Shown here one piece after another: positions 30,028 to 45,015 of a DNA stretch of 64,000 bases. Position 1 is the first letter of the stretch, and each line of letters starts with the position of its first letter. Source of the DNA: Candidatus Leucobacter sulfamidivorax. GTDB taxonomy: Bacteria > Actinomycetota > Actinomycetes > Actinomycetales > Microbacteriaceae. The translations under genes and the position numbers were made by a program. The stretch spans positions 806,001 to 870,000 of the forward strand of contig QZLF01000002.1 of NCBI GenBank assembly GCA_016771945.1, read 5' to 3'. Below the pieces are notes generated by a model. It was not told the origin of the DNA. It did no database searches and worked only from the letters and a program-made list of their open reading frames with translations.

Positions 30028-30357
30028 TCCGGGCCGCGGCGGGCTGCTGCTGTGCTCGCACTCGCATTCGCATTCGCGAGGGGACGCGAAATGCTGTCCG
30101 AGCCCGTGGGTGACGACGATTCGCGTCCCATTGCGGCCGGCGGCAGGCGCCAGTCGGGCGCAGCTCGCAGGCGGCTCAGCCGGTTCCGGGCGCTCTGCCG
30201 GACGAACCTGGCGTATTCCGTCCGGCAGAGCGCCCAGAACCGGCCGAGCGTCACCCCGCGAAGCGGCGGGCGGCCCGGTGGGCGGCGCACGCGAACGGCC
30301 TACGCGAGCTCTTCGAGGGCGTCGACGTCGCGATCCGCGGGCGGCGGGCAGCCCGGC
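30028..30357. other. 330-nt gene-free junction at the left edge of the island
   Basis: This holds no credible gene. It contains a 10-bp inverted repeat (30081-30090 with 30120-30129), then the left copy of the 106-bp direct repeat with its long hairpin. About 15 codons of a minus-strand FemAB C-terminus remain, ending HRAARRFAG and stop, with the body of that gene missing. A further minus-strand frame near 30300-30345 reads DRDVDALEELA before a stop and could be the tail of another lost gene. Confidence 0.7.
30174..30279. repeat. left copy of 106-bp direct repeat (femAB tail and terminator)
   Basis: Matches 44910-45015 at 102 of 106 positions in the same orientation. It includes a hairpin with 25-nt arms (30180-30204 and 30219-30243, one mismatch) and, on the minus strand, the last codons of a femAB gene. 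The two copies bound the catabolic island. Confidence 0.88.
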
Positions 30358-32019
30358 TCAGGCCGCGCCGCCCGCTTCCTCGGCCGCGCGTCGGCGCAGG
30401 GGGAAGCGCAGCAGCTTGCCGCTGGCGTTGCGGGGCAGGGAGTCCACGAAGTCGATGCGGCGAGGAACCTTGTACCGGGCGAGGCGCTCGGCGACGGCCC
30501 GCTTGATCGACTCGCGGGCCGCGTCGTCCGCGGGCACCCCGGGGACGAGCACGACGAAGGCGTTGACGATGGCGCCCTTCTCAGGGTCCGGCCTGGCCAC
30601 GACGACCGATTCCAGGACGCTCGGGTGCGCGTCGATTGCGGCCTCGACCTCGGGCGCGCCGATGTTGTACCCGGCCGCGACGATCATGTCGTCGGAGCGC
30701 GCCTGATAGTAGAAGTATCCCCGCTCGTCGCGCAGGTAGGTGTCGCCGGTCACGTTCCAGCCGTTCTGCACGTAGACCGTCTGCCGCGCATCGTCCAGGT
30801 AGCGGCAGCCGGTCGGGCCGATCACCGCCAGGCGCCCGAGCCGCCCCGGAGGGAGCTCCCGCCCGTCGTCGTCGAGGACGGCGGCGCGGTACCCGGGAAC
30901 CGCCCGCCCGGTCGCCCCGGGAACGACGTCCTCGCCGGCTGCCGAGATGAACACGTGGAGCATCTCGGTCGAGCCGATGCCGTTCACCAGGCGCAGCCCG
31001 GAGGCGGCCTCCACCGCCTCGAAGGTCTCCTTCGGGAGGTGCTCGCCGGCGGAGACCCCGAGGCGCAGCCGTCGCAGCGCGTCCGCCCGCCCCTCCTTGA
31101 GCATCGTCCGATAGCCGGTCGGAGCGGTGACGGCGATCGTCGCGCCGTGCGTCTCGATCGCGTCGGCCAGCGCTCGCGGGCTGGGCCTCTCCAGCAGCAG
31201 GCTGGAGGCCCCGAAGCGGAGCGGGAACACCATGAGGCCGCCGAGCCCGAACGTGAACGCGAGCGGCGGTGAGCCAACGACCACGTCGTCCGGCCGCATG
31301 CGCAGGGTGTGGCGGGCGAACGTGTCCGCGATCGCCAGCACGTCGCGGTGGAAGTGCACGGTGATCTTCGGCTCGCCCGTGGTGCCCGAGGTCGGCCCGA
31401 GCAGCACCACGTCGTCGGCCGCGGTGGCGACGGCCTCGAAGTCGGCGGGCTTCGCCGCGGACGCGGCGATGACCTCGTCGTCCGGGCCGGCGAGGGTCAG
31501 CACGCGCACGTGCGCGTCGACCGCCCCGTCGAGGGCCTCGGCGTAGCGATGATCGACGATGACGAGATCGGGTCGGGTCCGGGCGGCGATCTTCGTCAGC
31601 TCGCCGGCCTGCCAGGCGACCATGGTCGTGACCGCTATGGCGCCGGCCTTCACCGCGGCCAGCCAGCAGATCACCGCCCACGGGCTGTTGGGGATGCGCA
31701 GCAGCACGCGGTTGCCGGGCACCAGGCCGTGATCCTCGGTCAGCAGTCGCGCGAGCTGGTTCACCCGATCCCGCAGCCGCCCGTACGTCCAGATCTCGGG
31801 GGCCTCGTGGGAGTCCTCGGCCTCGCCGTCGACGGCGCGCATCGCGACCCGGTCGGAGCCCAATCTGGCGATGGTCCCGTCGAGCAGTTCGTGCGCCGCG
31901 TTCAGCCGCTCCGGGTATTGCAGCTCCGGCAGCGCGAACTCCAGCGCCGGCCACTGCTCCGGCGGCGGCAGCTGGTCGCGCGCGAAGGTGTCTCGGTGGG
32001 CGGATCGGGTGAGCTCCAT
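30358..32019 (-). CDS. aryl-CoA ligase (2-aminobenzoate/benzoate-CoA ligase-like)
   Basis: A 553-residue ANL-superfamily enzyme that would activate a carboxylic acid to its CoA thioester through an acyl-adenylate. The P-loop is LLGPTSGTTGEPK, followed by the HFHRDVLAIADTF segment typical of 2-aminobenzoate-CoA ligases. GSTEMLHVF, GWNVTGDTYLRDERG, SDDMIVAAGYNIGAPEVE and the C-terminal PRNASGKLLRFPL (catalytic Lys) are all present. The ATG at 32019 gives MELTRSAHRDTF; the longer frame is not needed. It is the last gene of the leftward operon after the transporter, so its substrate is probably what the transporter brings in. The exact acid is not determined. Confidence 0.85.
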   Translation of the reverse strand: MELTRSAHRDTFARDQLPPPEQWPALEFALPELQYPERLNAAHELLDGTIARLGSDRVAMRAVDGEAEDSHEAPEIWTYGRLRDRVNQLARLLTEDHGLVPGNRVLLRIPNSPWAVICWLAAVKAGAIAVTTMVAWQAGELTKIAARTRPDLVIVDHRYAEALDGAVDAHVRVLTLAGPDDEVIAASAAKPADFEAVATAADDVVLLGPTSGTTGEPKITVHFHRDVLAIADTFARHTLRMRPDDVVVGSPPLAFTFGLGGLMVFPLRFGASSLLLERPSPRALADAIETHGATIAVTAPTGYRTMLKEGRADALRRLRLGVSAGEHLPKETFEAVEAASGLRLVNGIGSTEMLHVFISAAGEDVVPGATGRAVPGYRAAVLDDDGRELPPGRLGRLAVIGPTGCRYLDDARQTVYVQNGWNVTGDTYLRDERGYFYYQARSDDMIVAAGYNIGAPEVEAAIDAHPSVLESVVVARPDPEKGAIVNAFVVLVPGVPADDAARESIKRAVAERLARYKVPRRIDFVDSLPRNASGKLLRFPLRRRAAEEAGGAA

Positions 32020-32144: not shown

Positions 32145-33176
32145 TCACTCGGCGAGGTGGGCGGTCTTCAGGATCGACTCCGGCACGGTGACGCCCATCG
32201 CCTGGGCCGAGGCGGTGTTCACCCACATGGTCACGTTGCCGGCCGGCTCGGGCGCGATGTCGTTCGCCGAGGTCCCCGTGAGGATCTTCACGAGCATGGC
32301 CGCGGTCTGCTTGCCCTGCTCGTAGGTGTTGGTCGCGACGGTCGCGAGCGCCCCCTCCTCGACCGAGCTCGTGTCCGAGGAGTACAGCGGCAGCTGGTTG
32401 TCGGACGCGATCTTGACCAGGGTCTGCAGGCCGGTCATCACCGTGTTGTCCTGCGGGAGGAGGACGGCGTCGACCTGGCCGACCAGCGCGTCCATCGCCG
32501 CCGAGACGTAGTTGCTCGAGGTGACCGTCGAGTCGACGAGCGTCCAGCCGCGCTGCTGCGCCGCGGCCTCGACGAGGCCTCGTGAGGCGACGGAGTTCGG
32601 CTCCCCGGGATTGTAGATGAACCCGAGGCGCTCCAGATCCGGCGTCAGCTCGGCGAAGAGATCGAGCTGCTCCTCGATGGTGTCGGGGGTGTAGACGCCG
32701 GTGACCAGGCGGCCCAGCGGCTCGTTCCCGGGCTTGGCGAGCCCGGCCTCAGCCGGATCCGCAGAGACGCCGCTGAAGACGACCGGGATCTCGGTGTTCT
32801 CCGTCGCCTTGACCGCCGCCTGCGAACTGGGCGTGCTGACGCCGACGATGGCGTCGACGCCGTCGGCGACGAACTTCTGCGCGATGGCGGTGGTGAGCGC
32901 GATGTCGCCCTGAGCGTTCTGGACGTCGACGATGACGTCCTCGCCCTCGACGTATCCCTGCTCCGCCAGGCCGTCCTGGATTCCCTCGATCAGGCTGTCG
33001 AGGTCGGGGTGCGAGACGATGGTGCTGATGCCGATCGTCGGCACCTTCGCGCCGTCGCCGGAGTCGCCGCCGGCGTTCGCGTCGCCCGACGGGCTCTGCC
33101 CGCAGGCCGACACCGTGGCGGTCAGGGCGAGCGCGAGCGTCGCGATCGATGCCCTGCGCAACATGGATTTCTTCAT
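32145..33176 (-). CDS. ABC transporter substrate-binding lipoprotein (TrpX-like, PF04392)
   Basis: A 343-residue extracellular lipoprotein. The signal ends in a lipobox (ATVSAC, about residue 25). The mature part starts with a Gly/Asp/Ser linker. It has the PF04392 features VPTIGISTIVSHPDLDSL, VDVQNAQGDIALTTAIAQKFV, IVGVSTPSSQAAVKAT, PVVFSGVSADP and LPQDNTVMTGLQTLV. Some members of this family bind tryptophan. It is separated from its permease and ATPase by the IS110 element, which may reduce its expression by polarity. Confidence 0.88.
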   Translation of the reverse strand: MKKSMLRRASIATLALALTATVSACGQSPSGDANAGGDSGDGAKVPTIGISTIVSHPDLDSLIEGIQDGLAEQGYVEGEDVIVDVQNAQGDIALTTAIAQKFVADGVDAIVGVSTPSSQAAVKATENTEIPVVFSGVSADPAEAGLAKPGNEPLGRLVTGVYTPDTIEEQLDLFAELTPDLERLGFIYNPGEPNSVASRGLVEAAAQQRGWTLVDSTVTSSNYVSAAMDALVGQVDAVLLPQDNTVMTGLQTLVKIASDNQLPLYSSDTSSVEEGALATVATNTYEQGKQTAAMLVKILTGTSANDIAPEPAGNVTMWVNTASAQAMGVTVPESILKTAHLAE

Positions 33177-33272: not shown

Positions 33273-34493
33273 TCAAGCCGCGAGAGCGGTGTCTGACCAG
33301 GTTCGGGGCTGGTAGAGACTGCCGGTGCGGAGCATGGCATAGAGCACGTCGCAGCGACGGCGGGCGAGCGCGATGAGGGCTTGGTTATGACGTTTGCCTT
33401 GGCTGATTTTGCGGTCGTAATAGGCGCGGGATTCGGGATCCCGGAGCGCTGCGAACGCGGAGAGAAACATCGCCCGCTTCAAGACCTTGTTCCCGCGCCG
33501 GGACGGTGACTCGCCTCGGATCGAGGTGCCTGAGCGCCTCGTGACAGGCGCAAGACCAGCGTAGGCGGCGAGGTGTCCTGCGGTTGGGAAGTGTTTCCCA
33601 ACAATCTCAGTGAGGAGTCTGGCGGCGGTCCTGACGCCGACTCCCGGCATGCTCGTCAGGACCGGGTGAAGAGGGTGCGCCTCAACGAGACGTTCGACCT
33701 CAGCCGCGATCTCATCGCGCTGTTTCCTCAGTTCGGTGAGCTGCTTCGCGAGGCGCGGGAGCACGATCCCGGCCGCATTTGTACCGACCACGGTTACGGT
33801 CTGCTGATCGAGGGCATCGAAAATCTCTTGCGCCCACACTCCGCCCTTGCGCGGGGCGCGCTTCAGCAGCCGGGCAGCCACGCGCTTCTGCCCGGCTCGT
33901 TGCAGCTCGGTCGGCGAAGGGTAGCGTTCGAGCAGATCGAGGATCGCGGGGTGATCCAGACGCGGCCCGAGTACCCGCTCCAAAGTGGGGTGGATCTGCG
34001 TGAGCAGGCCTCGCACCCGGTTAGAGACCTGGGTGATCTGCGCGGCGAGATCGTCATCGAAGCCGCAGAGCATCGAGAGTTCCGCGAGTTGCTCATCGGC
34101 CACCTTGATCGATCGTAATGTTGCAGGCATGGTGCGGGCGGTCTCCGCGATGATAAATGCGTCCCTGGCGTCGGTCTTCGCCTCACCCGGGTGAAGATCA
34201 GCAACTCGGCGCATCGTGAGACCGGGCAGGTATCCCACGAGCACGTCTGCAGCCTGGGCGACGGCGACCGGGAGTGCGCCGATCGTGGCGGGCTGATCGA
34301 CGACCAGCAGGGCGGGGCCGTGCTCAGCGAGTTGATCCAGCACCGATACGATCTTGGCTTCGGTGTTCGGGAGTGGCTTGTCGTAGAGCTTCTTTCCGTC
34401 ACGGGTGAGCGCGACCGCGTGATGCTCGCTCTTGCCGACATCGAGGCCGATGAAGACCGCGACGTCGTCGTAGTGTTTGATACTGCTGACCAA
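33273..34493 (-). CDS. IS110 family transposase (bridge-RNA-type recombinase)
   Basis: A 406-residue recombinase. The N-terminal RuvC-like DEDD domain shows FIGLDVGKSEHHAVAL, LLVVDQPATIGALPV and KTDARDAFIIAETAR. A coiled region near residues 235-260 precedes the C-terminal Transposase_20 domain with TSMPGVGVRTAARLLTEI and SPSRRGNKVLKRAMFLSAFA, which contains the presumed catalytic Ser. The TTG start is preceded by GGAGGA. The long upstream non-coding region places it in the group whose guide RNA comes from the left end. Confidence 0.93.
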   Translation of the reverse strand: MVSSIKHYDDVAVFIGLDVGKSEHHAVALTRDGKKLYDKPLPNTEAKIVSVLDQLAEHGPALLVVDQPATIGALPVAVAQAADVLVGYLPGLTMRRVADLHPGEAKTDARDAFIIAETARTMPATLRSIKVADEQLAELSMLCGFDDDLAAQITQVSNRVRGLLTQIHPTLERVLGPRLDHPAILDLLERYPSPTELQRAGQKRVAARLLKRAPRKGGVWAQEIFDALDQQTVTVVGTNAAGIVLPRLAKQLTELRKQRDEIAAEVERLVEAHPLHPVLTSMPGVGVRTAARLLTEIVGKHFPTAGHLAAYAGLAPVTRRSGTSIRGESPSRRGNKVLKRAMFLSAFAALRDPESRAYYDRKISQGKRHNQALIALARRRCDVLYAMLRTGSLYQPRTWSDTALAA

Positions 34494-34750: not shown

Positions 34751-35563
34751 CTACGGGGCGAGCAGGCTCCGGTCGCTCGAGAAGGACTCACCCGAGACCT
34801 CGTGGAACCGATCGACAAGCCGCCCGACGGTGAGCTGCGACTTCGCCGGGTTCCTCATATCGAGCACGATCTGACCGCGGTGCATCATCACCAGGCGATC
34901 GCCGTAGTCGATGGCGTGCTGCATGTTGTGGGTGACCATGAGCGTCGCGAGGCGGTGCTCGCGGATCTGACGCTCGGTGAGTGTCATCACCTGCGCCGCG
35001 GCCTTCGGGTCGAGTGCCGCCGTGTGCTCGTCGAGCAGGAGCACCTGGGGCGCGTTGAGAGTCGCCATGACGAGGCCGAGCGCCTGGCGCTGGCCGCCCG
35101 AGAGATTTCCGACCGGCGTCTGCAGCCGATCCTCGAGGCCGAGATCGCAGACCGCCAGCGCGTCGCGGAAGGCGCGGCGGCGGGCGGCGGTGACGCCCAG
35201 CCGGAACAGGCGGCGCTTCCCCCGCATCGCGGCGATGGCCAGGTTCTCCTCGATCGTCAGGGTCGGGGCGGTGCTGGCCCCGGGATCCTGGTCGATGCGA
35301 GCGACGATGCCGGCCCTGCGGTACTCGGGCCACGAGGTGACGTCGCGGCCCGCGAGCTCCACGCCGCCCCGCACCGGGCGCTCCAGCCCGGCGACGGTGC
35401 GCAGTAGCGTCGATTTGCCGGCGCCGTTGCTGCCGATCACCGCGACCCACTCGGTGGGGGCGATCTCCAGGGTCAGATGGCGCAGTGCGCGAACCTGGTT
35501 CGCCGTGCCGGGGAAGTAGACCTGGGAGACGTCGTCGACGCGGACGGCCGGTACCTGGTTCAC
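34751..35563 (-). CDS. ABC transporter ATP-binding protein
   Basis: A 270-residue ATPase. Walker A is GSNGAGKST, the signature is LSGGQRQALGL, Walker B is VLLLDEHTAALDP, and the switch His is in MVTHNMQHAI. It powers uptake by the adjacent permease. The GTG start overlaps the permease stop (GTGA). Its stop lies only 40 nt from the inferred end of the IS110 element. Type matches COG1101, the usual partner of the PF04392 binding protein. Confidence 0.92.
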   Translation of the reverse strand: MNQVPAVRVDDVSQVYFPGTANQVRALRHLTLEIAPTEWVAVIGSNGAGKSTLLRTVAGLERPVRGGVELAGRDVTSWPEYRRAGIVARIDQDPGASTAPTLTIEENLAIAAMRGKRRLFRLGVTAARRRAFRDALAVCDLGLEDRLQTPVGNLSGGQRQALGLVMATLNAPQVLLLDEHTAALDPKAAAQVMTLTERQIREHRLATLMVTHNMQHAIDYGDRLVMMHRGQIVLDMRNPAKSQLTVGRLVDRFHEVSGESFSSDRSLLAP

Positions 35564-36492
35564 TGGTCACTCACTTTCAACGGGCGGGTCTCGAGATCCT
35601 CTTCGTGGAAGGGCCGGTGCCGCTGGCGGTACAGTGAGATCGCGCTCGGAATGTAGAGGGCGAGCACCATGAGCACCGCGGTGGCGCCCTTGAAGTAGTA
35701 GGCGGGCATGCCGAGTCGCAGGGCGATGTTCAGGAGCGCCTGGTAGATCAGCGCGCCGGCGATGGCGCCCGAGCACCAGACCAGCAGGCTCCGCTTGCCG
35801 AAGATCGTCTCGCCGATGACCACCGATGCCGCGGCCGCGACGAGCGTGCCGATGCCCATGTTCACGTCGGCGAAGCCCTGGGCCTGCGAGAGCAGCGCGC
35901 CCGAGGCGGCGACGAAGCCGTTGCCGATCATCATGGCCACGATGAGGCTGATGCTGGTGTTCATGCCCAGTGCTCGCACCATGCGCTGATTCGCTCCGGC
36001 GGCGCGGATGGTCAGGCCGAGGTCGGTGTGGAGGAACCAGATGAGCACCGCCACCGCGATCGCGAGCAGCCCGAGGGTGACCGCCGCGCGGCTGAGACTG
36101 CCCTCGGCGACGCCGAACAGGTCGAGAACGGAGGTGTAGATCGTCTCGTGCCCGATGAGGTTCTTGTTCGGCGCGCCCATGATCACCAGGTTGACCGAGT
36201 ACATCCCAGCGGCGACCACGATGCCCGAGATGATCTCGTTGATGCGCAGCGCGGTGATGAGGAATCCGGTCAGCGCACCGGCGAGCGCGCCCGCGATCAC
36301 TGCCACGAACAGGCTGAGCCACGGGTTCATGTTCGCGACCAGGAAGGTCGAGAGGACGGCCGCGCCGAGCGGGAACGAGCCCTCGACCGTGAGGTCCGGG
36401 AAGTCGAGGATGCGGAACGTGAGGAGCACCCCGATGACCGCGAAGGCGAGGATGAGGCCTTGGTCGAGGGTGTTGAGCAGGGCGCTATCCAT
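35560..36492 (-). CDS. ABC transporter permease
   Basis: A 310-residue integral membrane protein with about nine hydrophobic segments of the BPD_transp_2 type (COG4120). Conserved loops are FPDLTVEGSFPLGAA near the start and GLTIRAAGANQRMVRALGM in the cytoplasmic coupling region. The ATG at 36492 (MDSALLNTLDQGL) was chosen because residues upstream in the longer frame are Pro/Arg-rich and non-membrane. It is first in the leftward operon, about 200 nt from the operator-like repeat shared with the divergent regulator. Confidence 0.9.
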   Translation of the reverse strand: MDSALLNTLDQGLILAFAVIGVLLTFRILDFPDLTVEGSFPLGAAVLSTFLVANMNPWLSLFVAVIAGALAGALTGFLITALRINEIISGIVVAAGMYSVNLVIMGAPNKNLIGHETIYTSVLDLFGVAEGSLSRAAVTLGLLAIAVAVLIWFLHTDLGLTIRAAGANQRMVRALGMNTSISLIVAMMIGNGFVAASGALLSQAQGFADVNMGIGTLVAAAASVVIGETIFGKRSLLVWCSGAIAGALIYQALLNIALRLGMPAYYFKGATAVLMVLALYIPSAISLYRQRHRPFHEEDLETRPLKVSDQ

Positions 36493-36751
36493 GTGCGTTG
36501 ACCGCCATTCTTCGGAGTCCTCCAACGGGAGTCGCCACTCGTCGAGTGGTCGCGGGGGAGCGGTGAGATCGCCCGGGACCGGGCGCGGGATGAGACAACA
36601 GGATCTGCTCCTCACTCGGGCGACGGGGCGCTTTCAGACGGTAACTCCCTCGTCCCGTCGCACCCCGGTCGCGGTGGATACGTCGACCATAATGCAAGTG
36701 GTTCACTGATGCAACCACTTTGGTTGACATTGGTTGAGAACTGGTGCGATC
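36493..36751. promoter_or_regulatory. divergent control region with inverted-repeat operator
   Basis: AAGTGGTT (36696-36703) and AACCACTT (36713-36720) form a perfect 8-bp inverted repeat with a 9-nt spacer. Further GGTT half-sites occur at 36722-36736. Leftward, TTGCAT and TTATGG are 16 nt apart across the repeat. Rightward, TTGACA is at 36724-36729. This is the likely binding site of the regulator encoded at 36752. Confidence 0.55.
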
Positions 36752-38674
36752 ATGTCTGACATGCGAAAAGTAGCGAGTGACCTTCTCGGAGAAACGGTCG
36801 TCGACGACCAGCTCGAGCCCGTGTCCCGGCGGCCGCTGTACCAGCAGGTCAAGGATCGGATCACCCAGCTGATCGACGACGGCATGCTGAAGGTCGGCGA
36901 CCAGCTCCCCTCCGAGCGGGCCCTGTCGGCGCGGCTGGGGGTGAGCCGCCACTCGCTGCGCCAGGCCATGTCTGCGATGGAGGCGCAGGGACTCATCGAG
37001 ATCCGGCACGGCTCCGGCGCCTACCTGGTCGACCGGGAGCCGGGGCAGGTCGCCTCCGACATCGCCGACGCGCTCATCGACTCCAGCGAGAAGCTGCCCT
37101 ACGTCATGGAGGCGCGGTTCGCGATCGAGCCGTTCCTCACGAGCCTCGCGGCGGATCGGCGCACGCCGGCTGACATCCGCGCCATTCGCGCCGCGCTGAC
37201 CATGATGGAGCGGGAGATCGCGGCGGGGGAGTCGGGGGAGAAGGGCGACATCGCGTTCCACGCGGCAGTGCTCGCGGCGGCGCACAACCCGATCTTCGTC
37301 GACTTCATGACCCGCCTGCAGCCCGACATGACGCGGCTGCGCGAGGAGGCGCTGGCGCAGCCGACCACGCCGCGGCTCGCGATCGAGGCCCACCACGCCA
37401 TTCTCGACGCGATCGAGGCCGGCGACCGGGAGCGCGCATTCCGCGCCGCGCACCAGCACCTGGTGGACGCGGCGGAGGCGCTCCTGGTGTCCGAGCTCGG
37501 CACCCCCTCGTACGCCTTCCTCGCCGAGATGCTCGCGAATGCGACCGGCGACCAGGACGACGCCGACCCCGCAGGCCAGGGCGGCGGCGTCCTCGGCGCG
37601 ACCCCTGCCGCCCTGGCGGCCGCGCTGGCCCCGCGCCACATCGAGGAGACGATCGAGGCGGTGCAGGAGGAGACTGGGCTCGAGATCGTGCACAAGCTGG
37701 ACTCGACGGAGAACCCGTACGGCTGCTCGCCCCGGGCCTCCGAGGCCGTGATCACCGCCGCGACGCAGCTCTCCGCCTATCCCGACGCCGAGGCGAGCGC
37801 CCTGCGCTCCGCCCTGTCGGAGCTGCACGGGGTCGCCGAGGAGCAGCTGATCTTCGGCAGCGGTTCCGACGAGATGCTGCTGCTCGCCGCGCGCACCTTC
37901 CTCTCCTCCGGGCGCTTCGCGGCGGCCTGCGAGCCGACCTCCGCCCGGTACCGCGCGCACACGCTCTCGACCGGCGCGAACTACCAGCCGGTGGCGCTGG
38001 ATCGGGGGCGGCCCGATCTCGTCGGGCTCGCCGCGGCAGCCTCGACCGCCTCCCTGCTCTGGGTGTGCAACCCGAACACGCCCACGGGCGGCTACCTCGG
38101 CGCGGAGGGCCTCGAGCGCCTCATGTCGAACGTGCCGCAGAACGTGGTGGTGGTGGTCGACGAGTCCTACGCCGACTACGCGACCGCCCCGGACTTCCCC
38201 GACAGCGTCGCGCTGATCCGGTCGTTCCCCAACCTGATGGTGACGAGAACCTTCTCGACGATTCACGGCCTCGCGGGGCTGCGCATCGGGTACGGGATCG
38301 CCGACGCCCGTGTGGCGAACCTCGTCAACGCGGTGCGACGCCCGTTCAACACCTCGAACCTGGCGCAGGCCGCGGCCCGCGCCTCGGTGCGGGACGAGGA
38401 CTTCATCCGGCGGAGTCGCGAGCGGAACGCGCAGGGGCGGGACGCCATCGAGGCGTTCTGCCGCTCGCGCGGCATCGGGTACTTCCCGTCCCAGGCGAAC
38501 TTCGTGCTGCTCGACGCCCCGGGCGGGGCCGAGAACGCCTACGAGGCGCTCAAGGAGCGCGGCTTCCTGGTGAAGCCGGGCGCCCACCTGGGGTACCCCG
38601 CGAAGATCCGCGTGTCCGTCGGCACGGACGATCAGGTCGAGGGCGCGCTCGCGGTCCTCGACGACCTGCTCTGA
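36752..38674 (+). CDS. GntR-FCD regulator fused to a PLP-lysine-less aminotransferase domain
   Basis: A 640-residue fusion. Residues about 25-90 are a GntR winged helix (RPLYQQVKDRITQLIDDGML, LPSERALSARLGVSRHSLRQAM). Residues about 100-235 form a FadR-type FCD ligand domain (YVMEARFAIEPFL, FHAAVLAAAHNPIF, EAHHAILDAI). Residues about 290-640 resemble histidinol-phosphate aminotransferase (STENPYG, FGSGSDEMLL, CNPNTPTGG, VVVVDESYADY, KIRVSVGT). The PLP lysine, normally in SKxxGLAGLR, is Thr503 in FSTIHGLAGLRIGY. Other cofactor contacts remain. It may sense PLP or an amino acid adduct rather than catalyse. MocR regulators differ: they lack FCD and keep the lysine. ATG 36752 or 36761. Confidence 0.85.
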   Translation: MSDMRKVASDLLGETVVDDQLEPVSRRPLYQQVKDRITQLIDDGMLKVGDQLPSERALSARLGVSRHSLRQAMSAMEAQGLIEIRHGSGAYLVDREPGQVASDIADALIDSSEKLPYVMEARFAIEPFLTSLAADRRTPADIRAIRAALTMMEREIAAGESGEKGDIAFHAAVLAAAHNPIFVDFMTRLQPDMTRLREEALAQPTTPRLAIEAHHAILDAIEAGDRERAFRAAHQHLVDAAEALLVSELGTPSYAFLAEMLANATGDQDDADPAGQGGGVLGATPAALAAALAPRHIEETIEAVQEETGLEIVHKLDSTENPYGCSPRASEAVITAATQLSAYPDAEASALRSALSELHGVAEEQLIFGSGSDEMLLLAARTFLSSGRFAAACEPTSARYRAHTLSTGANYQPVALDRGRPDLVGLAAAASTASLLWVCNPNTPTGGYLGAEGLERLMSNVPQNVVVVVDESYADYATAPDFPDSVALIRSFPNLMVTRTFSTIHGLAGLRIGYGIADARVANLVNAVRRPFNTSNLAQAAARASVRDEDFIRRSRERNAQGRDAIEAFCRSRGIGYFPSQANFVLLDAPGGAENAYEALKERGFLVKPGAHLGYPAKIRVSVGTDDQVEGALAVLDDLL

Positions 38675-38761: not shown

Positions 38762-39952
38762 ATGAATCAGACTGCCACCGCGACCGTCCCCACCCACTCC
38801 GAGATCGTGGCGTCGGCCCGTGCCATCGTCGAGCGGCTGCGCGCGAATGCGCGCGAGTCGGATCGGCTGGGGCGACTGAGCGACGATTCGTTCCGGGCGC
38901 TGCAGGAGGCGGGGCTGCTGCAGATCATGGTGCCGCGGCGCTGCGGGGGCTGGGAGGGAGACATCGCCACTGTCGTCGAGGCCACGAGCACCGTGGCGGA
39001 GGGCTGCCCGGGCGCGGCCTGGCACGTCATGATCGCGAACGGCAACGCCTGGCAGCTCGGCCACCTCGATGAGCGCGTTCAGGACGAGCTCTTCGGCGAC
39101 GGCCCCGGCACGCTCGTCTCCGGGGCCATCATGCCGAGCGGGTCGGCGCGGAAGGTGCCGGGCGGGTGGCGGGTCACCGGCCGCTTCAACTTCGTGAGCG
39201 GCATCCAGCACGCCTCGTGGCTGACCTTCCTCACCTTCGCCGAGAACGAGGGCGGCAGCCGGGGCGAGACCCTGATGATGTACTGCCCGGCCTCCGAGGT
39301 CACGCAGCTCGGCAACTGGGACACCCTCGGAATGCGCGGTTCGGGATCGCCGGATGTCGAACTGAACGACGTCTTCGTGCCGGAGAGCCGCGTGCTGCCC
39401 CCCTCCGATCGCAGCGTCGTCTCCGAGGCGGCGATGCGGCAGGCGACGAACCTGTATAGGATGCCGACGGTGGCCGGGTTCCCGCTGCTCATCGCCGGCA
39501 CCGTGCTCGGCCCCGCCAAGCGGGCGCTGGAGCTCTACGTCGAGCGCCTCCGCGAGCGCACCGAGCGGTACACCGAGCGCGCGAAGTCGGAGTCCCAGGC
39601 CCAGCTCATCCGCGTCGCGAACGCGTCGGCGGCGATCATGTCGGCGGAGATGCTGCTCGCGGATGCCGCCGCGAGGTTCGACGCGGCCGTGCGGAGCGGC
39701 GGGAAGCCGACGCTCGAAGACCGGGCCGCGATCAAGTGGCAGGCCGTCTACGCCATCGACGTGCTGCGCAAGGCGGTGACCGCCCTCTACGACGCGGCCG
39801 GGGGCAGCGCGATCTACGCCGAGGGCGAGTTCCTCTCGACCTTCCGCAACGTGCACGTCGGATCGCACCACGCCGCCTGCGATTTCGACCCGGCGGCCGA
39901 GATGTTCGGGCGGCTCCTGATCGGGCTCGACGTCGACGTGCGAGCGGTGTGA
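38762..39952 (+). CDS. group D flavin-dependent monooxygenase (acyl-CoA dehydrogenase fold)
   Basis: A 396-residue protein of the acyl-CoA dehydrogenase superfamily, closest in character to the two-component monooxygenases (HsaA/HpaB/DszC type). LLQIMVPRRCGGWEGD, AAWHVMIANGNAWQLGHL, GWRVTGRFNFVSGI, WDTLGMRGSGSPDVELNDVFVP and GGSAIYAEGEFLSTFRNVHVGSHH follow the order in that group. The acyl-CoA dehydrogenase catalytic Glu is not evident. It would hydroxylate an aromatic or N-containing substrate using reduced flavin; no flavin reductase gene is next to it. Confidence 0.8.
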   Translation: MNQTATATVPTHSEIVASARAIVERLRANARESDRLGRLSDDSFRALQEAGLLQIMVPRRCGGWEGDIATVVEATSTVAEGCPGAAWHVMIANGNAWQLGHLDERVQDELFGDGPGTLVSGAIMPSGSARKVPGGWRVTGRFNFVSGIQHASWLTFLTFAENEGGSRGETLMMYCPASEVTQLGNWDTLGMRGSGSPDVELNDVFVPESRVLPPSDRSVVSEAAMRQATNLYRMPTVAGFPLLIAGTVLGPAKRALELYVERLRERTERYTERAKSESQAQLIRVANASAAIMSAEMLLADAAARFDAAVRSGGKPTLEDRAAIKWQAVYAIDVLRKAVTALYDAAGGSAIYAEGEFLSTFRNVHVGSHHAACDFDPAAEMFGRLLIGLDVDVRAV

Positions 39953-41154
39953 TCGTGCGGGCCGACATGCTCAATACGCGACTGAGCCGCTTCAGGGGCG
40001 GGCTCTTCGAGCCCTCGGGGAAGTCCGACATCGGGGAGGCGACCGATGTGCTCCGCCGCAACGGCACCGACATCCTGGCCTGGGCCGATCCCTTCCTGCC
40101 CGATCGGAGCCTTCCGCAGAGCATCCGTGCCGCCCTGCACGAGGCCGCTGAGGAGGAGGCGATCGAGCACTACGCGCTCCCGATCGGCACGCGGGAGCTC
40201 AGAGAGGCGCTCGCGCGCAAGGTGGCGTCGAAGAACGGCATCGCGGCGGATCCCTCGCGCAACATCCTGGTGACGCCCGGCGCGGACTCCGGCCTGTTCC
40301 TCTGCATGATGGCGCTGCTCAACCCCGGCGACGAGGTCCTGATCCCCGAGCCGGGCTTCCCCGCGGCGTTCTCGAACTGCGAGATCCTCGGCGCCACGCC
40401 GGTGCCCGTGCGCATGACGGCGGAGAGCGGCTACCAGATCGACGTCGCCGACCTCGAGCGCGCGCTGACCCCCCGGACCAAGATGGTCTTCATCGCCCAC
40501 CCCAACAACCCGACCGGCACGGTGTTCAGAGAGTCGGTGCTGCGCGACCTCGCGCGCTTCGTCGTCGAGCATGACCTGCTGCTGCTGTGCGACCAGGCGT
40601 TCGAGGACCACATCTTCGACGGCATCGAGTTCGTCTCCCCGGCCGCCCTGCCGGGCATGGGCGATCGGACGGTCACGGTGTTCTCCCTCTCGAAGGGCTA
40701 CGGCTTCAGCGGGTTCCGTGTGGCCTACGTGCACGCCTGCGCCGAGATCATGGACGTGCTCTACGGCAACGTCACCACGGTGTGCGGGGCGACCTCGACG
40801 CTCGCGCAGAGGCTCGCCCTCGCCGCCCTCGCCGACGACGGACTGCTGAGGGAGTACGGGGAGAAGCACGAGCGGCGGCGGCGCCTCCTGCACGACGCGC
40901 TCTCCGACGTGCCGGGAGTGCGGATGCGCCTCTCCGAGAGCGGCATCCTGAGCTGGGTCGACGTCTCTGCGCTGGGCACCTCGGCCGAGGTCGTGCGGCA
41001 TCTCGTCGAGCAGGCGAACGTACTGGTCAACGACGGCGCCGCGTACGGCCCGCACGGCGCCGGGCACCTCCGCGTGGTGCACGGATGCCTCCTCGAAGAC
41101 GACTACGCGGCCGAGGTGTACGGGCGCATCCGATCCGCGCTCATGCGGCTCTAG
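39949..41154 (+). CDS. PLP-dependent aminotransferase (class I/II)
   Basis: A 401-residue aspartate-aminotransferase-fold enzyme. It keeps the PLP lysine in SLSKGYGFSGFRVAY, with AHPNNPTGTVF, LLLCDQAFEDHIFD and VTPGADSGLFLCMMALL. The GTG at 39949 overlaps the upstream TGA; GTG 39955 and ATG 39967 are alternatives. It contrasts with the lysine-less aminotransferase domain of the regulator in the same operon. It probably acts on an amino acid made or taken up by the pathway; the specificity cannot be read. Confidence 0.85.
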   Translation: MIVRADMLNTRLSRFRGGLFEPSGKSDIGEATDVLRRNGTDILAWADPFLPDRSLPQSIRAALHEAAEEEAIEHYALPIGTRELREALARKVASKNGIAADPSRNILVTPGADSGLFLCMMALLNPGDEVLIPEPGFPAAFSNCEILGATPVPVRMTAESGYQIDVADLERALTPRTKMVFIAHPNNPTGTVFRESVLRDLARFVVEHDLLLLCDQAFEDHIFDGIEFVSPAALPGMGDRTVTVFSLSKGYGFSGFRVAYVHACAEIMDVLYGNVTTVCGATSTLAQRLALAALADDGLLREYGEKHERRRRLLHDALSDVPGVRMRLSESGILSWVDVSALGTSAEVVRHLVEQANVLVNDGAAYGPHGAGHLRVVHGCLLEDDYAAEVYGRIRSALMRL

Positions 41155-41248: not shown

Positions 41249-41776
41249 ATGCCCGTCGAACAATCCGTCCATCGGGCGGGCCGTATCAAGGTGGTGCGGG
41301 AATCGGAGCGGGAGTCGCTCTGGTTCCTGGGCGACAACGTGCAGCTCATCGTGGACAGTGCCGACACCGAGGGCCGCCTCGTGATGGCCGTGCACCACGC
41401 GGCGGCGAGCTCGCAGCCGCCCCTGCACGAGCACGACAACGAGGACGAGATCTTCTTCATCCTCCAGGGGGAGATCAAGTTCTGGTCGGTCGACACCGTG
41501 GTGAACGCCGGAGTCGGCGACTGCGTGCTGCTGCCGAAGGACGTGCCGCACACCTTCCAGGTCTCGCCGAACAGCGAGGCGAAGTGGCTCGTCATCCTGA
41601 CCCCGGGCGGCTTCGACCGCTTCTTCCGCGCCGTGGGAACGCCCGCGGGGTATCCCGGTCCCCAGCAGGGCTGGAGCATGGACGACGAGACCGCGAAGCG
41701 GCTCGAGACCGCGGCCGAGGAGTGCGGCATCAGGCTGCTCGGCCCTCCCGGCACGCTGCCCGAGCCGACGGCCTGA
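41249..41776 (+). CDS. cupin domain protein
   Basis: A 175-residue single-domain cupin. The metal-binding motifs are PPLHEHDNEDEIFFILQGE and the second-strand segment GDCVLLPKDVPHTFQ. Such proteins can be dioxygenases, isomerases or binding proteins. GAGGAG precedes the ATG. It lies in the rightward catabolic operon, 3 nt before the esterase gene. Confidence 0.85.
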   Translation: MPVEQSVHRAGRIKVVRESERESLWFLGDNVQLIVDSADTEGRLVMAVHHAAASSQPPLHEHDNEDEIFFILQGEIKFWSVDTVVNAGVGDCVLLPKDVPHTFQVSPNSEAKWLVILTPGGFDRFFRAVGTPAGYPGPQQGWSMDDETAKRLETAAEECGIRLLGPPGTLPEPTA

Positions 41777-41779
41777 GCC

Positions 41780-43153
41780 ATGGCGATCAGGCGATCCGGG
41801 TACGCGGGGCAGGTCGTCGACGGGGTCGAGCGCTACCTCGGCATCCAATACGCCGAGCCCGGCCCCTCCGGGCGCTTCTCCGCGTCGGCGGTCATCGGTG
41901 GCCGCCGGCAGGCGGCGGCGGACTCGCTCGACGACGTTCCCGTCTTCCCGCAGCTGCCGAGCCGGCTGTCGGCGGCGATGGGTCGCCGCGTCGAACGCAA
42001 CCCGCAGGTCGAATCGGCGTTCTTCCTCAACGTCTGGACGCCGGTCCGGGGTTCGCGGCTGCCGGTCCTGTTCTTCATCCACGGCGGGGCCTGGATGACC
42101 GGGGGCGGATCCGCCTCCTGGTACGACGGGCGCGCGCTGAGCGCGCGCGGCATGGTGGTGGTCACCTGCAACTACCGGCTCGGACCGCTGGCCCATCTGA
42201 CCGAGCCGGGCTCCGGCGGGAGCCGGAATCCCGCGCTCTCCGACCTCCTCGCCGCGCTGCGGTGGGTGCGCGAGAACATCGCGCGATTCGGCGGCGACCC
42301 CGAGGCGGTCACCGTCGCCGGTCAGTCGGCGGGGAGCTGGTACGCCCACCTGCTCTGCGTCTCGGATGCGGCACGCGGGTTGCTCGGCCGAGTCGCGCAC
42401 CTGAGCCACGCGAGCAATCGGCCCTGGACCCCCGCGCGCCAGGACCGGCTCTGCGAAGAGGTCCGGCGGGAGCTGGGCCTCGGCTCGTTGCGGGACGCGG
42501 GGGTGCCCGAACTGCTCGAGGCGGGGAGACGCGCGGCGACCCGGACCGAGCCGGGGCTCGGAGCGGTCCCGACCCCGTACCTCCCGACGACGGACGCCGC
42601 GACCGCCGATCTTCTCTGCAGCGCGCCCGAGAGCGCGCGGGCGTCGCACGCGCGGGCCGTCTACCTCCGCACCACTGGCACCGAGACGTCGGCGTTCTTC
42701 TTCGACTCGCCGCGCGAGCGGCAGGTCGACGCGGATGCCGTCGCGCGCCTCCGCGCGTCGACGGCGGGCGGCGCCGCCGCCGCGGGCGGGTCTGCGCGCA
42801 CGCCCTACGAGGAGCTCGTGGCCATCACCTCCGAGCACTTCTTCGACGGCCCGTCGCGGGCGCTGGCCGACGCGTATGCCGATCGGGGCATACCGACCTA
42901 TCTGCGCGCCTTCGAGGCGCGGAGCGAGCTCGACGGGTTCCTCAGCGGCCACTGCTTCGACCTGCCGTTCCAGTTCGGCTCGAGGGACGGCTGGCCGGAC
43001 GCGCCGATGCTGCGCGGGATCTCCCGCGAGCGATTCGACCGCGTCTCCGCCGGGCTGGTCTCCGAACTCGCGGACTTCGTCGCCTCGCCGGACTCGGGTT
43101 GCGGCCTGGAACGCCACCTCGGGGGTGCGGGCGCGGTGCCGATACCGCCGTAG
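41780..43153 (+). CDS. type B carboxylesterase
   Basis: A 457-residue alpha/beta hydrolase of the carboxylesterase type B family. The oxyanion-hole segment is FFIHGGAWMTGG, and the nucleophile elbow is AGQSAGSW, with Gln instead of the more usual Glu before Ser. A family-type acidic segment AFFFDSPRER and the final catalytic region SGHCFDLPFQFGSRDG follow. No signal peptide, so it is cytoplasmic. In this operon it could release an acid or alcohol from an ester for the CoA ligase or the dehydrogenase. Confidence 0.85.
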   Translation: MAIRRSGYAGQVVDGVERYLGIQYAEPGPSGRFSASAVIGGRRQAAADSLDDVPVFPQLPSRLSAAMGRRVERNPQVESAFFLNVWTPVRGSRLPVLFFIHGGAWMTGGGSASWYDGRALSARGMVVVTCNYRLGPLAHLTEPGSGGSRNPALSDLLAALRWVRENIARFGGDPEAVTVAGQSAGSWYAHLLCVSDAARGLLGRVAHLSHASNRPWTPARQDRLCEEVRRELGLGSLRDAGVPELLEAGRRAATRTEPGLGAVPTPYLPTTDAATADLLCSAPESARASHARAVYLRTTGTETSAFFFDSPRERQVDADAVARLRASTAGGAAAAGGSARTPYEELVAITSEHFFDGPSRALADAYADRGIPTYLRAFEARSELDGFLSGHCFDLPFQFGSRDGWPDAPMLRGISRERFDRVSAGLVSELADFVASPDSGCGLERHLGGAGAVPIPP

Positions 43154-43282: not shown

Positions 43283-44431
43283 ATGACGACGGTCTCGCTT
43301 CCCGAGACGATGAAAGCCGCGGTCTGGCCGGGCGACTCGGCGTCGCTGACGGTCGAGCGGATACCGGTTCCGCGACCGCTCGCGGGCGAGGTGCTGGTGC
43401 GGGTCGCCGCCTGCGGTGTCTGCCACACCGATCTGCACGTGATGAAGGGCGAGGTCGCATTCCCCGGCCCCGCCGTCGTCGGCCACGAGATCAGCGGCAC
43501 GGTCGCCGAGGTCGGCCCCGGCGTCGTCGGGTACGCGCCCGGCGACCGGGTCGTCGGCGCGTTCATCATGCCGTGCGGCGAGTGCGCCCAGTGCTCCAAG
43601 GGCCGCGACGACCTGTGCCTCACCTTCTTCGGCGAGAACCGGCTCAAGGGCAACCTGCTCGACGGCACAAGCCGTCTCGCCCGCGCGGACGGCACGCGGC
43701 TGTCGATGTACTCGATGGGAGGGATGGCGGAGTACGCGGTGGTGCCCGTCAACGCGCTGGCGCATCTCGATGCGTCGCTGCCGCTGGAGGAGTCGTGCAT
43801 CCTCGGCTGCGCGGTGTTCACCGCCTACGGCGCTCTCGCCGCCGCCGGGCTCCGGGCGGGGGAGTCGATGGCGGTGGTCGCGACCGGGGGCGTCGGCTCG
43901 AGCATCGTGCAGCTCGGAGTGCACCTCGGTGCGACTCCGGTCGTCGCGGTCGACGTCTCCGACGAGAAGCTCGCGGGCGCGCGTGCGCTGGGCGCGACCG
44001 TGACGGTGAACAGCCTGGCGGAGGACGCGGTCGCCGCGGTACGGGAGGCGGTGCCCGGCGGGGTCGACGTCGTCTTCGAGGCGCTCGGCCGCGCGGAGAC
44101 CTTCGAGCTCGCCCACGCCCTGCTCGCCGACGGCGGCCGGATGGTCGCGGTCGGCATCGCCGCCGGCGCCACCGCGGCGTCCGTGCCGATCACCCAGCTC
44201 GTGCGGCGAGGCCAGACCATCCGGGGGTCCTTCGGGGCCCGGACCCGGCAGGATCTTCCGGAGGTGGTGGCGCTCGCAGCCGACGGCGGCATCGACGCGC
44301 GCGCCTCCATCACGAGGAGGTACCCGATCGACCGGGCCGACGACGCGTACCGGGATCTCGCCGACGGCGCGGTCGTCGGGCGCGCGATCGTGGTGATGGC
44401 CGGCGGGCGAGAGGCGGTGTCGGAACGGTGA
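43283..44431 (+). CDS. zinc-dependent alcohol dehydrogenase (MDR family)
   Basis: A 382-residue medium-chain dehydrogenase. Catalytic zinc ligands are in AACGVCHTDLH and VVGHEISG. The structural zinc lobe is MPCGECAQCSKGRDDLC. The NAD(P) fold has VVATGGVGSSIVQLGVHLGA with a GGVGSS variant of the usual motif. It likely interconverts an alcohol and aldehyde in the pathway. GAGAGGA precedes the ATG. Its stop overlaps the GTG of the next small gene. Confidence 0.9.
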   Translation: MTTVSLPETMKAAVWPGDSASLTVERIPVPRPLAGEVLVRVAACGVCHTDLHVMKGEVAFPGPAVVGHEISGTVAEVGPGVVGYAPGDRVVGAFIMPCGECAQCSKGRDDLCLTFFGENRLKGNLLDGTSRLARADGTRLSMYSMGGMAEYAVVPVNALAHLDASLPLEESCILGCAVFTAYGALAAAGLRAGESMAVVATGGVGSSIVQLGVHLGATPVVAVDVSDEKLAGARALGATVTVNSLAEDAVAAVREAVPGGVDVVFEALGRAETFELAHALLADGGRMVAVGIAAGATAASVPITQLVRRGQTIRGSFGARTRQDLPEVVALAADGGIDARASITRRYPIDRADDAYRDLADGAVVGRAIVVMAGGREAVSER

Positions 44432-44856
44432 CGAGGGAGGGAGCCGAGGGAGTGACGGCGGCAGGCAGAAGCGGGCACCCGATGTACGAGAGCGTCGTGC
44501 CCGAGGCGATCCGAATGCTCGTGCTCGGCTCGGCCGAGCCGAGCTTCTACGGAGCCCCGGCCGAGCTCAAGCGGGAGATCCACGCAGCGCTGCGGCGGCT
44601 GTTCGCGGTCTGGCAGGAGTGGGGCGCGAGGTATCTGGGCTCCTTCGACGACGACCTGCTGATGGTGGGCATGCCGCGGGCGCGGAAGCACCACTTCACC
44701 ATCATCTACGAGGTCGAGAGCCTCGAGATGGCGGGCGCGATGATGAACCTGTTCCGCACCGAGGTCGAGGGCGTCCTCCTGAACGGCTACGTGCGCTTCG
44801 AGGCGATGCTCGGCCGGGGCTTCTTCCCGGCCGACGAGGCCGCAGGCGCGGCCTAG
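44428..44856 (+). CDS. 142-residue protein of unknown function, last gene of the catabolic operon
   Basis: The GTG at 44428 overlaps the dehydrogenase stop (GTGA); ATG 44482 (MYESVVPEAIRM) is a plausible later start. The sequence is soluble, with a helix around LKREIHAALRRLFAVW and a strand-helix section HHFTIIYEVESLEMAGAMMNLF that suggests a ferredoxin-like alpha/beta fold. I do not recognise the family. Coupling to the dehydrogenase implies a role in the same pathway. Confidence 0.6.
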   Translation: MTREGAEGVTAAGRSGHPMYESVVPEAIRMLVLGSAEPSFYGAPAELKREIHAALRRLFAVWQEWGARYLGSFDDDLLMVGMPRARKHHFTIIYEVESLEMAGAMMNLFRTEVEGVLLNGYVRFEAMLGRGFFPADEAAGAA

Positions 44857-44909: not shown

Positions 44910-45015
44910 GCTCAGCCGGTTCGGGGCGCTCTGCCGGACGAACCCCGCGTATTCCGTCCGGCAGAGCGCCCTGAACCGGCCGAGCGTCACCCCGCGAAGC
45001 GGCGGGCGGCCCGGT
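44910..45015. repeat. right copy of 106-bp direct repeat (femAB tail and terminator)
   Basis: Direct partner of 30174-30279. Here the minus-strand part is the real end of the femAB gene at 44987-45919. The hairpin (44916-44940 with 44955-44979, one G-T pair) is its terminator and can also end the rightward catabolic operon. Confidence 0.88.

Follow-up and report, generated by a model that had tools for sequence, protein, structure and literature searches.

The window, by which we mean the whole 64,000-nucleotide stretch of DNA analysed here, carries at 36752-38674 on the forward strand a regulator gene that forms a single open frame from ATG to TGA and encodes a protein of 640 residues, in which a GntR helix, an FCD effector domain and a HisC-like aminotransferase fold lacking the PLP lysine follow one another. 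Downstream and on the same strand lies a catabolic gene run, namely an HsaA-like, acyl-CoA-dehydrogenase-like flavin monooxygenase (38762-39952; 219 bits, cut-off 450), an ordinary aminotransferase with the lysine in the motif SLSKGYGFSG (39967-41154, identified by family matches, start at the ATG at 39967), a cupin protein (41249-41776, Pfam), a carboxylesterase-family protein (41780-43153, Pfam), a zinc alcohol dehydrogenase (43283-44431, Pfam and NCBIfam) and a small frame that ends the run (44482-44856) and has no Pfam or NCBIfam match. The earlier note, made from the letters of the window and its open reading frames, had already placed a normal, lysine-containing aminotransferase in this run, and this is what we find. 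Divergently, on the reverse strand, lie genes for an ABC permease of the BPD_transp_2 family (35560-36492, family match, start placed at the ATG at 36492), an ABC ATPase (34751-35563, Pfam), a TrpX-like ABC substrate-binding protein (32145-33176; 249 bits, cut-off 390) and a benzoate-CoA-ligase-like acyl-CoA ligase (30358-32019; 319 bits, cut-off 375), with an IS110-family (RNA-guided) transposase gene (33273-34493, reverse strand) between those for the ATPase and the substrate-binding protein. An aromatic or heteroaromatic amine as the pathway substrate is a guess from this gene mix, in which the substrate-binding protein, the CoA ligase and the monooxygenase all fall below their family cut-offs.

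These genes form a catabolic block of about 14.7 kb, at whose ends lie two 106-bp direct repeats that share 96.2% identity (30174-30279 and 44910-45015, both forward strand), the right copy overlapping the 3' end of femX2. The repeat holds an internal inverted repeat. Ten genus genomes, G000 included, match the right-hand femX gene, and stretches of 18.5-19 kb were taken from three high-identity ones (G011, G040 and G048). In all three the flanking femX genes are adjacent and convergent and the sequence to either side runs colinear with that of the window, the left femX being just 45-47% identical in two of them, and the block proteins found no match at E 1e-20 within the fetched stretches. 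Because these three congeners lack the block between the corresponding genes and repeats bound it in the window, the regulator arrived with, or was built inside, a gained catabolic block. The latter looks like an attL/attR-type island, and no integrase was seen among the block genes scanned, a set that leaves out small frames. Plasmid searches aimed at the pathway returned only relatives of less than 60% identity, and the lysine-containing aminotransferase had one other match in 248 order genomes (51% identity, in G639), in a different gene setting.

Between the divergent genes, an intergenic word cluster at 36696-36735 (no strand assigned) could act as an operator, the candidate consisting of AAGTGGTT-N9-AACCACTT plus two TGGTT repeats. 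Four TGGTT/AACCA words lie within 50 bp (36699-36735), as many as in none of 2000 dinucleotide shuffles, for a word that was picked after viewing the sequence. The perfect 8-bp inverted repeat with its 9-bp spacer (36696-36720) carries no significance by itself, being present in 147 of 2000 shuffles. Within the window, no second operator-like site was found at up to 3 mismatches. A sigma-70-like site at 36724-36753 was set aside, as it would overlie the start codon. Repeat operators have a precedent in the FCD group, since NanR, according to the accessible part of PMC8012715, binds three direct GGTATA repeats.

The three-part layout that had been read from the letters is borne out by Pfam families along the forward strand. 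The GntR winged helix-turn-helix occupies residues 29-91 (36836-37024; PF00392, 4.7e-20) and the FCD domain residues 118-237 (37103-37462; PF07729, 1.1e-25), each backed by conservation and scoring above its Pfam gathering score (71.4 bits against 27 and 90.9 bits against 24.3), and this PF00392-then-PF07729 order is the one that defines FadR/FCD-type GntR regulators. A linker of approximately residues 250-286 (37499-37609), predicted at low confidence (pLDDT below 50 at 254-261 and 263-286) and probably flexible, leads to the HisC-like aminotransferase domain at residues 313-635 (37688-38656; PF00155, Aminotran_1_2, 3.1e-49). All three families clear their gathering scores by a wide margin. 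This third domain reaches 278.1 bits with the NCBIfam hisC model TIGR01141, narrowly over its curated cut-off of 276.55, and its best solved relative is HisC of Listeria innocua, 3ffh (1.6e-70 by sequence, TMt 0.86-0.88 by fold). Among the best 25 of 70 matches, the 278 bits of hisC compare with 88 for YczR, 74 for PdxR and 54 for the rhizopine MocR, in agreement with the earlier view of a HisC-type rather than MocR-type domain, and the best regulator-type NCBIfam model for the N-terminal half, again among the best 25 of 70, is that of NanR (PRK03837) with 133 bits, under the cut-off of 260. The structure model of the whole regulator, whose input alignment held 76 partial relatives, some of the partial rows with misplaced end residues, has a mean pLDDT of 86.9, with blocks at 92-98 from residue 321 onward; because its pTM is 0.63, the relative placement of the domains in it is unreliable.

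An assembly or sequencing error might have fused two genes or made the threonine codon at the lysine site, given that the regulator comes from only one genome (94.19% complete, 4.84% contamination). Lys and Thr codons are separated by one base, so that Thr503 by itself could be such an error, and an in-frame ATG at codon 260, where an internal start is conceivable, might begin a separate gene. Against this, from codon 41 onward GC3 amounts to 0.93-1.00 in each block of 40 codons and does not break at the junction, the frame is open throughout, and four other sites that are invariant in relatives are altered as well, which together make a fusion by sequencing error unlikely. The joining of two genes by error, which the earlier note had named as grounds for giving up its reading, has left no sign here; we rejected a fusion artefact and give error of either kind hardly any weight.

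The regulator half of the protein is intact. Compared with 31 relatives, it keeps all 8 columns that are identical in 31 of 31, and among the columns conserved to at least 80% it departs solely at M76 and T130. In the FCD domain, D166, H170, H214 and H236 share their letter with 30, 31, 25 and 27 of the 31 relatives, respectively, and likely form a metal site; by the residues present, the protein thus has the Asp/His metal set that is common, not universal, in FadR/FCD regulators. The spacing of the His residues, 44 and 22 residues, is the same as in Ps5454 (H148, H192 and H214), and, as in DgoR (D146/H150), the Asp precedes the first His by four residues, both as described in the available portion of PMC7674646. 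With this half intact, the FCD domain, which would be the main sensor, looks functional on its own.

The third domain tells a different story. Residues 285-640 of the query were aligned with 45 HisC-type sequences, comprising 42 of the 44 loci from a pattern scan (L051 and L052 left out) and three from the source genome (L002, L003 and L004). Thr503 (ACG, 38258-38260, forward strand) occupies the site of the PLP lysine, which is Lys in all 45 relatives and corresponds to Lys217 of mArAT, so that the reported loss of the lysine stands, and the catalytic PLP lysine that characterises a TIGR01141 HisC enzyme is missing from the query. The conserved Asn of the NPTG motif, present in 45 of 45 relatives and equivalent to Asn157 of mArAT, is likewise replaced, by Thr443 (ACG, 38078-38080, forward strand). 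As this threonine stands for the Asn preceding Pro, NPNTPTGG is not an intact motif, and the earlier note was mistaken in counting it among the residues retained. In total, the query carries five changes at columns invariant in the HisC relatives (Y>R295, N>T319, N>T443, A>S472 and K>T503). When each relative was compared with the other relatives and the query with all 45, 41 of the relatives had no such private change and 4 had one. Low identity is not the cause of the five changes in the query, because L004 is even less identical on average (0.29, against 0.35 for the query) and yet has none. Further departures, at columns conserved to at least 85%, are N>S370 (42/45), T>A433 (42/45), E>D475 (39/45), Y>H505 (42/45), A>S545 (40/45) and R>K608 (43/45). 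The Arg295 site is probably that of the lid Tyr of the relatives, in the N-terminal part of the domain where the alignment is least sure.

Much of the pocket is nevertheless preserved, the query keeping Y343, G371, D373, Y400, D470, Y473, S502, R511 and R620. Asn194 of aspartate aminotransferase touches the O3' side of the cofactor, a contact that we take to be shared by the NPTG Asn replaced here by Thr443, and Y343, D373 and S502 presumably have phosphate roles. With the Lys and the NPTG Asn lost and Y343, G371, D373, Y400, S502, R511 and R620 kept, the sequence rules out catalysis by way of the usual lysine and still makes a pocket for a phosphate-bearing ligand plausible. Of the set conserved in subfamily Ibeta as listed in the accessible text of PMC4703992 (Gly84, Asn157, Pro158, Asp184, Tyr187, Lys217, Arg225, Gly227 and Arg330 in mArAT numbering), seven of nine are kept, as G371, P444, D470, Y473, R511, G513 and R620, and two, Asn157 (Thr443) and Lys217 (Thr503), are lost; chain 4r2n served to check the numbering of Asn157, Asp184, Tyr187, Lys217 and Arg225, the others being placed by motifs and alignment. 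The same part of that source describes for mHspAT a salt bridge between Arg240 and the phosphate and stacking by Tyr127. As worded, the assertion that the ring-binding residues remain is thus not supported: D470, Y473, R511 and R620 are kept, but the NPTG Asn is lost, and so is the invariant Tyr replaced by Arg295.

Whether another lysine could take over bears on the possibility of an active enzyme-regulator. The protein has nine lysines, and the aminotransferase part contains only K315, K601, K608 and K618, none of which is near position 503 in sequence. K608 could substitute from elsewhere in the pocket, its column being Arg in 43 of 45 relatives and aligning with Arg322 of mArAT, the 'arginine switch' residue according to the available part of PMC4703992. 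However, the NPTG Asn is lost too and the sequence bears no sign of a rebuilt centre, and we regard a catalytic role of K608 as very improbable.

The architecture has so far been seen once. In searches for a second GntR-FCD-aminotransferase protein, only G000 matched among 54 genus genomes (E up to 1e-60), 398 family genomes (1e-75), and 396 order and 394 class genomes (1e-60), in draws that overlap and include G000. Candidates scored per listed genome numbered 3 in the family, order and class draws and up to 23 in the genus; with such strict E limits and 3 candidates per genome, a diverged fusion may escape notice. The pattern scan, which covered 84,980 species genomes and required an exact 8-residue word, gave 44 loci and no GntR-FCD-aminotransferase fusion, 41 of the loci being stand-alone HisC-type frames of 325-444 residues, L051 a 177-residue fragment and L052 a GntR-type match only. 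The remaining locus (L049, 7131-9005, forward strand, Acidimicrobiales) is a HisC-type frame of 625 residues in which some 290 residues without a Pfam family match precede the aminotransferase part, a stretch that may be a mere upstream extension of the open frame. Among plasmids, 286 records matched and none reached 80% coverage, and IMG/VR held no relative. The GntR-FCD part matched in 22 of 198 phylum genomes, with 33 matches of which one is the query itself; judged by length, the 29 non-self loci include no aminotransferase fusion and one HAD fusion, and the three matches that lack a locus have open frames of just 244-253 residues. That one fusion (L071, 399-2096, reverse strand, genome G1338 of the same phylum) is a GntR-FCD-HAD (Hydrolase_3) protein with an open frame of 566 residues, from which it follows that FCD regulators do gain enzyme folds C-terminally. 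Among open-licence PMC papers, judged by title and the opening of the abstract, no description of a GntR-FCD-aminotransferase fusion came up. The family search put forward in the earlier note thus ended with a single member among the sampled genomes.

As to its origin, a maximum-likelihood tree places the third domain in a group of 19 rows with 18 Bacillota HisC sequences (support 100/99), apart from L002-L004, on a branch of 2.35, the median end branch being 0.16 and only that of L004 (3.97) being longer. Descent from Bacillota HisC is a lead only, because of the long branch, the deviating letter make-up and the pattern-biased sampling. An origin from the host's own HisC was rejected, weakly, on the strength of this grouping.

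On the basis of sequence, predicted fold, residue conservation and gene setting, which places the regulator between a divergent ABC importer and the catabolic run, we put at about even chances that the protein is a local repressor of the FCD type and carries as its third domain a pseudoenzyme derived from HisC, which serves as a non-covalent ligand pocket, a dimer scaffold or both. Such a GntR-FCD repressor would act in the divergent promoter region ahead of the gained catabolic block and thereby govern that block. The FCD domain, with its probable metal site, would be the main sensor and bind a small acid of the pathway, and could still supply induction despite the loss of the lysine. The HisC fold would have turned into a pseudoenzyme that gave up the lysine of the Schiff base along with the NPTG Asn but kept its carboxylate arginine and the side that takes the phosphate. 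It would offer a second, non-covalent pocket, whose likeliest ligand is PMP or an amine bearing PLP or a phosphate. In addition, it might serve as a dimer scaffold that aids placement of the winged helices.

Alternatively, the GntR-FCD part might regulate alone, the third domain being a passive dimerisation body or a passenger decaying since the fusion. The branch of 2.35 is long and may reflect relaxed constraint, the cofactor Lys and Asn are gone, and the nearest GntR-FCD relatives (41-45% identical) terminate after the FCD domain. Yet the frame contains no stop or frameshift and its GC3 remains unbroken from codon 41, the fold is predicted at high confidence, and the five private changes, too few to test for a pattern of decay, spare S502, R511, Y343 and G371. 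Constraint on the third domain is not measurable from the one sequence of this architecture known here, and we consider a mere passenger or passive body possible, though on the unlikely side.

The same degree of doubt applies to the proposal of the earlier note that PLP, or an adduct of PLP with an amino acid, is a second signal which the domain would bind non-covalently, following a MocR-like logic. Since seven of the nine subfamily-conserved residues remain, the domain may bind PLP or a PLP-amine adduct without a covalent bond; D470, Y473, Y343, Y400, S502, R511 and R620 are all in place, and the gene run includes a lysine-containing aminotransferase. Speaking against it are the concomitant loss of the NPTG Asn (T443) and the lack of any PLP-metabolism gene among the scanned block genes, and the loss of both Lys and Asn is equally well compatible with a total loss of cofactor binding. 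A further counterargument comes from EnuR, in which, according to the accessible text of PMC8739950, the exchange Lys302His leads to the loss of PLP, abolishes induction and yields a constitutive repressor, a warning by analogy that loss of the lysine can abolish sensing in a MocR-type sensor. The pseudoenzyme, passenger and PLP-sensing readings overlap, and the probabilities that we attach to the readings therefore do not add up to one.

We advance rather tentatively a more specific reading, a regulator with two sensors, in which the metal-containing FCD pocket would sense one metabolite and the lysine-less HisC fold, taken up independently of MocR, would sense a second one non-covalently, namely a B6-amine adduct or a phosphorylated amine. 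If true, this would be, to our knowledge, the first aminotransferase-fold sensor in gene regulation to operate without the Schiff-base lysine. A HisC fold that was separately recruited behind a complete FCD regulator and has lost the Lys and the NPTG Asn with its pocket mostly kept would offer a natural test of sensing without Schiff-base chemistry, and also of the way in which fusion can hand a regulator a second input.

The MocR regulators are the standard example of an aminotransferase fold made into a sensor with its lysine chemistry retained. Like MocR, GabR and EnuR, the present protein combines a GntR winged helix and a fold-type-I aminotransferase domain on one chain; unlike in MocR, an FCD domain (118-237) intervenes and the Lys and the NPTG Asn are lost. 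In the available portion of PMC6677901, a MocR regulator consists of a winged helix that a linker connects to an AAT domain. From 1331 MocR AAT domains (50% identity filter), that survey reports that every cluster conserves Asp279 and Lys312, and it makes a case for at least three independent fusions. Of the PLP Lys and Asp so defined, the former is replaced by Thr503 and the latter kept as Asp470; membership of MocR was rejected on account of the intervening FCD domain and the missing Lys. With the FadR/FCD regulators NanR, PdhR, LldR and DgoR the protein shares a winged helix plus FCD domain with the D/H/H/H set and a place beside catabolic genes, but the relatives examined, L071 excepted, stop soon after the FCD domain, whereas here some 390 residues follow. 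With HisC (TIGR01141; 3ffh) it shares a score above the curated cut-off, the best structure match and the grouping with Bacillota HisC, but it is fused to a regulator, lacks the PLP Lys and the NPTG Asn and carries Arg295 where the relatives have an invariant Tyr. The closest parallel in construction is L071, in which an enzyme fold is likewise appended C-terminally to a GntR-FCD regulator, the appended fold being a HAD hydrolase and not an aminotransferase. Seen once, the protein would be a further recruitment of the aminotransferase fold, one that contains an FCD domain and does without the lysine.
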